From Antennarius striatus (Eukaryota > Chordata > Actinopteri > Lophiiformes > Antennariidae): a DNA stretch of 64,000 bases. Positions within the stretch are counted from its first letter, which is position 1. Every line of letters begins with the position of its first letter. The notes below the pieces were generated by a model. It saw only the letters and a list, made by a program, of their open reading frames with translations. It did not search any database and was not told where the DNA came from. A program made the translations under genes and the position numbers. The stretch covers positions 10,206,501 to 10,270,500 of the forward strand of contig NC_090785.1 of the NCBI RefSeq assembly GCF_040054535.1, written 5' to 3'. Of the stretch, positions 35,801 to 37,681 are shown piece by piece.

Positions 35801-37681
35801 CAACCTGGCCAGTGAGAGGAGCTCGATAGAGAGCGTGTACGAGCTGACCAAATACCTGGAGTATCAGCTGAAGGAAATTAAAGACATATATGTGAGTCAT
35901 CATTTGTGAAACCTTTAGAGGCTAGCTGGGGAACACAGTGGAACGTGGAGCAGCTATTTCCCAGATATTTCCCTAAATCAAAAAACAAGAGAATAGTTGA
36001 GTTGGATCAGACTAATTTTAAAGAGATAAAGCCAAATTGCAAATTCATTGTTTTAAACACCCATCACAGCTTAGGGGTTGACTTTCTGGCCCAAACTTAA
36101 TTTTAATATGGTTTTCCTGTGTGTTTTCTGTGATGGATGACTATAGATATAAAACAGTTTGTTTTAGATAAACTGGCTGGACTCTTGTTTCTGATCATTT
36201 GTCCACTTATGTTTCTTGGCTTGAGACTTGACTGTAAGTAATGAATCTGTATAAAATGTCTTGATGACCGAAACTATGAAAATAAGTAATATGCCAGAAT
36301 CTATTAAGTATTCTCGACCTTTCTCCTAATGTCTCTATACCTGCTACAGCTGACCTACCTGGGCCCCCCATTCAACGAGAAAGACTTCTCCCCTCCACGA
36401 CCAAACAGCACAGCTCTGTCCCTGCCCAGTGCCGCCACCCGCCTGGAGCTGTGGCACGGCCTCGAGAACCAAGCTCGGCTCGCCCAGAATCAGAAGGCCT
36501 ACTCTGTCCTGCTGGCAGCTGTGAGGGAGTTGGCCAGTAACACCATCTGCCCCTCCCTCAAGACCTCCCTACTGCACTTCTGTACAGGACTGGATGGGCT
36601 GCTGGGGTCCATATCTGCACTGATGACCACCCTCGGTTATGCGCTTCCACCTCCATCATCCTCAGACCTGGTGAGCAGCGCTGGAGAAAGGCAGCTCCTT
36701 CAAAGGGGATCCGGGAGCGACAGTCCGGCTCCACTGATGAGCCAGAGTATTTACAGGTCCAGAGCCGGGACCAGGACGGAGTCTGGCCAGCGTAACCAAA
36801 GAAGGAGTGGGGCAAGGGTGGTGAGACGAGAGAGGGAGGATGGAGTCAATGCAGACCAAGTGGATAAAAGGAGAGGGAAAGAGGGGAGGAGAGCACAGGT
36901 TGGGGCAGGAGGAGGAAAGAGTGGCGGATCGAGGGACAGGGGCAGAGAGGAAAAACGGAGGAGAGGGAGGAGGGCTGAGCCTGAGATTAGGAGATGGATC
37001 ACCCCAGATGACGCGGTAAGAGAGGAGGATGAGGAGGAACTAGACCCAGAGGGAGGCGTCACGATATGGGGGAACCGGCGAAGGTTGTTTAGTGTAAGCG
37101 ACGACGGAGAAGAGAATGAAAAGAAGCCAGAAGGCGGTGTACAAGTGTCATACCTGCCCACAGGTCAGCTGACCCTTCGAGCCAACAACAATAACGACAA
37201 TCAATATGTCTACAACATGAACTCTCATTACCCAGACACATTCAGGAAAGAAGACGGGTTCATGGTTGAGGCAAGCGGACGTTTATTGGTGGGGGAGAAG
37301 CAAACAGAACTTGAAGTCGTCTCCTCTTCCTCCTCTTTTCATCATCAACGTCGGCCTCCCCGCTCCATCTTCTCCTCCACCCTCCAGCCACCCCTGTCCA
37401 CTCTGTCCCTCCTCTACCAGTTTGGAGCAGGTGAGGAGCACACCCTCCTCTCCCAGCCCATCCCCCTGTCTTTACAAAGGGGCACCTCCCTGCTGTCACC
37501 CCCCTTGTCTCCGCTCCTGTCCTCCACCTCCTCTTCCTCCTCTTCGCTGCTCTCTGTGCAGCCGACAATGAATGACTTTGCCAGGAAGGTGGAGGGATTT
37601 TGGATATTACGAGAGCTGCAGAGTTGGCTGTGGCGATCGGCGAAGGACTTCAATCGGCTGAAGAGGAGACTCCGAGGCTGA
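26884..37681 (+). CDS. clcf1: cardiotrophin-like cytokine factor 1 (IL-6/CNTF-family cytokine), 3 exons
   Basis: Coding exons 26884-26902, 35737-35891 and 36350-37681 join in phase across GT-AG introns to 1506 nt (501 aa). CLCF1 is secreted, normally with CRLF1, and signals through CNTFR/LIFR/gp130. The first 23 residues (MKRTCGVHQHQLVLLLASAMATA) form a signal peptide that exists only when exons 1 and 2 are joined, which supports the tiny first exon. Helix A is YELTKYLEYQLKEIKDIY. The family hallmark LGPPFNEKDF follows (human LNYLGPPFNEPDF). Helices B and C include LHFCTGLDGLLGSISALM. Helix D is FWILRELQSWLWRSAKDFNRL, nearly identical to human. Between C and D (residues 166-462) are 297 codons absent from human CLCF1, bounded by splice-site-like sequences; without them the protein is 204 aa (human 225). 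An ATG at 36329 is intronic and is not used as a start. Confidence 0.95.
27569..27680. repeat. (TG)n microsatellite
   Basis: About 53 uninterrupted TG units followed by CTGTGT, preceded by a GA-rich stretch (GAGATAGAGAGAGGGAGA). Confidence 0.98.
28740..28800. repeat. CTC/CCT trinucleotide-rich polypyrimidine tract
   Basis: Imperfect CTC repeats (CCTCCTCCTCCACCTCC) inside a longer pyrimidine-rich strand. The minus strand reads as polyglycine in one frame, a composition artefact. Confidence 0.9.
32205..32510. repeat. compound TG/TA/CA dinucleotide cluster, left part
   Basis: Alternating purine-pyrimidine blocks: TG and CA units around TATATATA, then (TG)11(TA)8(CA)18 at 32282-32355, then a long TG run to about 32472. 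Several blocks are self-complementary. Confidence 0.97.
32562..32804. repeat. (CA)n long interrupted microsatellite
   Basis: About 240 bases of CA with a few AAA, CGC and CAGA interruptions. It is complementary to the TG run that ends about 90 bases upstream. Confidence 0.98.
35132..35208. repeat. (TG)n with GCACG interruptions
   Basis: TG units interrupted by two GTGCACGTG palindromes, near the 3' end of CLCF1 intron 1. Confidence 0.95.
36671..37561 (+). other. clcf1: 891-nt in-frame intron-like segment inside CLCF1 exon 3 (exitron candidate)
   Basis: It starts GTGAGC exactly between codons (after PPPSSSDL) and ends with a roughly 60-base pyrimidine-rich stretch and CTGTGCAG exactly between codons (before PTMNDFARKVEGFW). 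Its length is 3 x 297 with no stop. If translated it encodes a hydrophilic segment rich in R, E, G and S, then a more protein-like middle (VSYLPTGQLTLRANNNN), then a serine/proline/leucine-rich end. If spliced out, helices C and D are joined by a short loop as in mammalian CLCF1. The sequence alone cannot say whether it is a constitutive intron, an exitron or a true coding insertion. Confidence 0.85.

Follow-up and report, generated by a model that had tools for sequence, protein, structure and literature searches.

A candidate exitron in the C–D loop of the cytokine gene clcf1 of Antennarius striatus

The question raised by this locus is whether a long GT...AG segment within the last coding exon of a cytokine gene is an intron, a piece of coding sequence, or both. 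The locus lies in a 64,000-nt stretch of the Antennarius striatus genome (contig NC_090785.1, positions 10,206,501 to 10,270,500; hereafter the window, to which all positions refer). An initial annotation had proposed an exitron that, if regulated, would give two very different ligands from one gene. The edges of the segment are intron-like and its interior is exon-like, so we read it as exitron-type, a reading to which we give about an even chance (Table 1).

We compared the last exon with the PDB using phmmer; the sole sequence matched at E 0.001 is human CLCF1 (chain 8d7h_D, E 3.8e−38), and on this homology, which covers helices B–D, the gene is clcf1 (CLCF1, a gp130/IL-6 family cytokine). 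Human CLCF1 (225 aa; structures 8d7h and 8d7r) is like the gene here in that helices B, C, and D align and the FXXK motif is kept, that is, FARK at the start of helix D aligns with human FLQK. The Pfam model of the CNTF family (PF01110) matches the last exon with 15.5 bits, in helix D only and below the curated cut-off of 22.7; because the model was built for CNTF, this is no argument against the CLCF1 identity. A search of the same genome for a CLCF1 paralogue gave no match below E 0.7; the weak match at locus L012 (E 0.73) adjoins an RRM exon (identified by eye), which we take to be ENOX-like, and was hence dropped. Searches of this genome for the CNTF and IL6 families, intended for comparison of a C–D loop intron, gave no match, with the controls equally unmatched, so they say nothing about absence. 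For exon 1, we considered ATG-to-donor pairs of the required phase from window position 15 kb up to exon 2; the candidate at 26884–26902 has the best score (6.14) among the seven pairs listed. The 204 and 501 aa previously given as the sizes of the products without and with the segment agree with this layout arithmetically, with the reservation that they depend on the predicted exon 1.

Table 1. Features of the clcf1 locus (window positions; a slash marks a splice or cleavage point; scores are from a generic vertebrate matrix).
Feature	Position	Strand	Details
Candidate coding part of exon 1 (prediction)	26884..26902	+	MKRTCG + first codon base (MKRTCG/G); strong donor behind
Exon 2	35737..35891	+	...HQHQLVLLLASAMATALDTSHNLASERSS...LKEIKDIY; putative end of signal peptide and helix A; frame, CACAG acceptor, TAT/GTGAGT donor
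Intron 2	35892..36349	+	donor 3.32, acceptor 3.80; internal yardstick
Last exon before segment	36350..36670	+	LTYLGPPFNE...GYALPPPSSSDL; helices B and C; phmmer to 8d7h_D, query 1–103
Exitron candidate	36671..37561	+	891-nt stop-free GT...AG segment, phase 0, 297 codons, C–D loop
RGRR/A	36962..36973	+	sole R-X-K/R-R furin-type motif in segment; in highly basic stretch
Alternative acceptor ending 37387	37370..37387	+	phase 0, score 7.53; 717-nt in-frame intron
Alternative acceptor ending 37420	37403..37420	+	phase 0, score 5.21; 750-nt in-frame intron
Internal donor-like CAG/GTGAGG at 37431	37428..37436	+	phase 1, score 6.93
Last exon after segment	37562..37681	+	PTMNDFARKVEGFW...LRG stop; helix D; phmmer query 404–442
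FARK (FXXK equivalent; human F178/K181)	37577..37588	+	starts five residues past acceptor

The anatomy of the segment is as the initial annotation had described it. The GTGAGC donor lies at a codon boundary (CTG/GTGAGC, directly following last-exon codon 107), as does the acceptor (CTCTCTGTGCAG/CCG), so the segment runs GTGAGC...TGTGCAG; the 60 nt ahead of the AG are 87% C+T, the long pyrimidine tract noted earlier. Because 891 nt is divisible by 3 and both cuts fall between codons, removal is neutral for the frame, and there are 0 stops in the 297 codons when reading continues in frame from the exon upstream. With the last exon as phmmer query, homology to human CLCF1 stops at residue 103 and restarts at residue 404; the splice-like sites (after residue 107 and before residue 405) are within four codons and one codon, respectively, of these homology edges and fall where helices C and D are joined in the structure. 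Human CLCF1 differs in having a short C–D loop and, by the count of three exons given in the available part of PMC8780587, no such segment, consistent with the earlier statement that mammals have no intron here.

In GC content (54–58% in its surroundings) the segment is similar to the flanking exon; the figure for windows that cover exon 2 and intron 2 is 39–40%. The encoded charge is uneven: the 33 residues that begin at 36869 carry a net +9 and give way to an acidic stretch (−7). Searches of Pfam and the PDB found no known domain. As nucleic acid, the first half (36750–37160) is purine-rich and the end (37320–37560) pyrimidine-rich, and several arms are partly complementary; RNA structure that would pair the splice sites was considered and rejected (z −0.69 for the whole fold, with 5 of 20 shuffles equally good). 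An origin from a transposon or repeat was likewise rejected: the segment's own genome contains, besides the segment itself, one 64-nt match at the pyrimidine-rich end, and at the protein level no copy below E 2.5.

Chance accounts poorly for the open frame. The +1 and +2 frames of the segment contain 9 and 13 stops, and the minus frames 5, 11, and 7. Dinucleotide shuffles with 60-, 120-, and 297-nt blocks give 8.29, 8.41, and 8.65 expected in-frame stops, and none of 12,000 shuffles (3 × 4000) is stop-free, the lowest having 1 stop, so an open frame arising by chance from base composition is unsupported; a separate run gave 8.5–9.4 expected stops and again no stop-free shuffle (0 of 3 × 1000), and a Poisson estimate for zero stops is about 2e−4. 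Of the 8.29 stops expected, 7.72 belong to 36671–37387; the final 174 nt expect only 0.57 stops and are therefore uninformative about the open frame. The null fits noncoding-like sequence, with an observed/expected ratio of 0.98 (sd 0.21) in 157 blocks drawn from this window and from 19 loci of ten kb each; this set leaves out window positions 35000–38600, locus L023 (which has repeat ORFs), any block containing N, and blocks with open runs of at least 100 codons, and dropping the latter biases it towards stops. When 67 window blocks outside the clcf1 region were taken with no ORF filter, each had at least 7 stops. The stop-to-stop ORF at 36308–37681 (457 codons) is the longest among the 23 window ORFs of at least 120 codons that were listed; the second-longest of these (257 codons) is a CA/GT-repeat ORF. 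Given the many introns in a genome, one such open intron somewhere by chance is conceivable; the coding-like composition of the segment makes this less likely here.

This composition is one of several measures of protein code, which disagree: amino acid composition, the GC3–GC2 contrast, and the absence of Cys favour coding, whereas synonymous codon usage and period-3 power do not. The in-frame amino acid composition (z 2.96) is equalled by 1 of the 157 noncoding-like blocks and the in-frame GC3–GC2 contrast (z 2.20) by 6. No Cys codon is present where 5.74 are expected (shuffle p 0.0007, uncorrected for the 20 amino acids tested), and there are 6 Tyr (TAY) codons and 0 TAR with 2.3–2.4 and 4.1 expected; the Cys, Tyr, and stop counts draw on common codon families, so they are not fully independent. 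Period-3 power is weak (1.41, a level also reached in 13 of the 69 further 891-nt blocks of the window), the coding controls having values of at least 4.17 in 11 of 12 cases and 1.22 in the remaining one. Synonymous codon usage gave p 0.013–0.021 in an earlier scoring, a signal that was weakened by later controls; in the later scoring z is 0.47, a value equalled by 80 of the 157 blocks. Among the 20 training ORFs, one (L047) was in the wrong frame for the period-3, splice, and earlier codon scores and in the right frame for the later ones; an LRR search for training exons gave no match. The synonymous z is 4.0–14.2 in ten BTB_2 exons (potassium-channel type) and −0.08 to 0.79 in the SH2-gene coding controls L020, L021, and L022, so for some proteins it discriminates poorly. 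Just 6 of the 157 blocks have a GC content of at least 48%, that is, composition-matched controls are few; none of the 6 equals the amino acid or GC3–GC2 value, and 4 equal the synonymous value. Genome and viral contigs scanned with protein and pattern queries yielded no orthologue, as is to be expected from collections without animals.

The edges were scored with a generic vertebrate matrix, its frequencies untrained on this genome. On this scale, the segment donor (4.67) and acceptor (4.69) exceed those of intron 2 (3.32 and 3.80), and the acceptor also exceeds that of exon 2 (2.36). Elsewhere in this genome, 23,487 nt of coding exons contain few sites of at least this quality, with 0.21 donors per kb (5) and 0.77 acceptors per kb (18); no AG in the same exons has both an equal pyrimidine tract and an acceptor score that falls at most 2 short of the one here. 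There is no yUnAy branch point 15–80 nt upstream of 37561, and an acceptor at 36587 (phase 1, score 5.18) that lies within the upstream coding part and must be false indicates that the generic matrix finds acceptors easily. The acceptor at 37561 and the two acceptor-like sites with ends at 37387 and 37420 share phase 0 and are inside a pyrimidine-rich Ser/Pro/Leu stretch. With three such acceptors in 37370–37561, several in-frame intron lengths are possible; splicing from the internal donor at 37431 to 37561 (131 nt) would break the frame.

The last intron of IL6 genes is of phase 0 and is located in the C–D loop, so the position of the segment could be an old intron site. As described in the available text of PMC7284502, IL6 genes have five exons and four introns. 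Human CLCF1 has only two introns.

Four readings of the segment can be weighed against these observations; the weights that we give them are judgements, not computed values. An ordinary constitutive phase-0 intron, open by chance and either gained in the lineage or an old C–D loop intron lost in mammals, would agree with sites better than those of intron 2, with the long pyrimidine tract, with the weak period-3 and synonymous signals, and with the compact CLCF1 that its removal restores; also, a few long open introns per genome may arise by chance. We nevertheless consider it distinctly unlikely: an intron of this kind would have to lack the 8.29–8.65 expected stops solely in the frame that continues from upstream, and in that same frame to lack Cys and to carry the amino acid and GC3–GC2 signals, with an exon-like GC content. 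A shorter in-frame intron, from 36671 to 37387 or 37420, would leave 58 or 47 segment residues always coding; both acceptors share phase 0 and outscore that at 37561, and the final 174 nt, with their 0.57 expected stops, carry little information about stops. Human homology restarts one codon ahead of 37562 and no earlier, which argues against this reading, and we regard it as highly improbable.

The interior of the segment fits a constitutive coding insertion, that is, a lineage-specific part of the last exon that is always translated (perhaps a former C–D loop intron turned exon) and whose splice-like ends are leftover or chance. The open frame, the absence of Cys, the amino acid and GC3–GC2 signals, and the exon-like GC content are all on its side, and the use of the splice sites is itself a prediction from sequence. 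Its difficulty is at the edges, where a donor and an acceptor that outscore intron 2 and are of a quality infrequent in coding DNA would have to fall so close to the points where human homology breaks off and restarts, as leftovers or by chance; also, a 297-aa loop beside FXXK would be expected to disturb binding of the receptor and CRLF1. We judge this insertion rather unlikely. The exitron-type reading, in which the segment occupies the C–D loop up to a point five residues short of the FXXK motif that binds LIFR and CRLF1, draws on both kinds of evidence: zero stops under a null that fits noncoding-like blocks, the amino acid composition, GC3–GC2 contrast, missing Cys, TAY/TAR counts, and exon-like GC content of the interior, and sites that outscore intron 2, are rare in coding exons, and are near the homology edges. 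The weak period-3 power, the synonymous z of 0.47, the few GC-matched controls, the similar-scoring false acceptor, and the missing branch point motif count against it. Of the exitron initially proposed, the plausible edge splice sites and an open frame poorly explained by chance have held up, and the synonymous signal has not proved robust.

Exitrons are an already known kind of element. In the available part of Marquez et al. 2015 (PMC4484396), they are described as GT...AG sequences within coding exons with splice sites weaker than those of retained introns. The segment is like them in lying within a coding exon (CLCF1 homology flanks it, with a single frame open throughout), in having no stop if retained, in its 3n length, in a GC content above that of introns, and in a probably disordered product. 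Its sites, by the generic matrix, are strong for this gene, which runs counter to both the published tendency and the exitron reading, although weak sites are a tendency and no requirement. In the same source, exitrons are shared ancestral coding sequences that are used as alternative introns; in contrast, the segment is missing from human CLCF1, and its use as an alternative intron is a candidate one. Among the papers listed in the literature searches, mostly without subscription papers, there was no CLCF1 exitron, which is no proof of absence.

We infer splicing, retention, and translation of the segment from its sequence. Splicing from the GT at 36671 to the AG at 37561, or to an earlier in-frame AG, would leave a mammal-like cytokine of 204 aa; if some transcripts keep the segment and are translated, the open frame would be maintained. 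The retained form would be a secreted protein of 501 aa with a Cys-free, charged, and probably disordered loop of 297 residues. Solved complexes show the FXXK motif (human F178 and K181) docked on LIFR and, for CRLF1–CLCF1–CNTFR, on a second CRLF1, as described in the available part of PMC10022904. A bulky, hydrophilic loop beside this site 3 may hinder the LIFR and/or CRLF1 contact, so that the product of retention could be secreted poorly, signal weakly, or act as an antagonist, and splicing would release the compact active ligand; the basic stretch may hold the long form at the cell surface, and RGRR may allow its cleavage. A regulated clcf1 exitron would then toggle between the active cytokine and a 501-aa, site-3-hindered form that keeps helices A–C and is matrix-bound, retained, or antagonistic, a proposal that we offer as doubtful. 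If true, splice switching of a loop adjacent to the LIFR/CRLF1 contact would represent a new control of gp130 cytokine activity. After light damage to the zebrafish retina, photoreceptors are protected by injected mouse CLCF1/CRLF1, and Mueller glia proliferate less when clcf1 is knocked down together with crlf1a, according to the available part of PMC9950120.

Scans of the whole 64-kb window for tRNA and Rfam families gave no match. Upstream of clcf1 exon 2, a minus-strand ORF (22754–23119) encodes a POB3_N PH domain (Pfam E 9.4e−14) and is probably an exon of ssrp1. Long CA repeats at 37977–38048 and 38389–38490, just 3′ of the clcf1 stop, are presumably in the clcf1 3′ UTR; the first plus-strand AATAAA downstream of the stop is at 39143.
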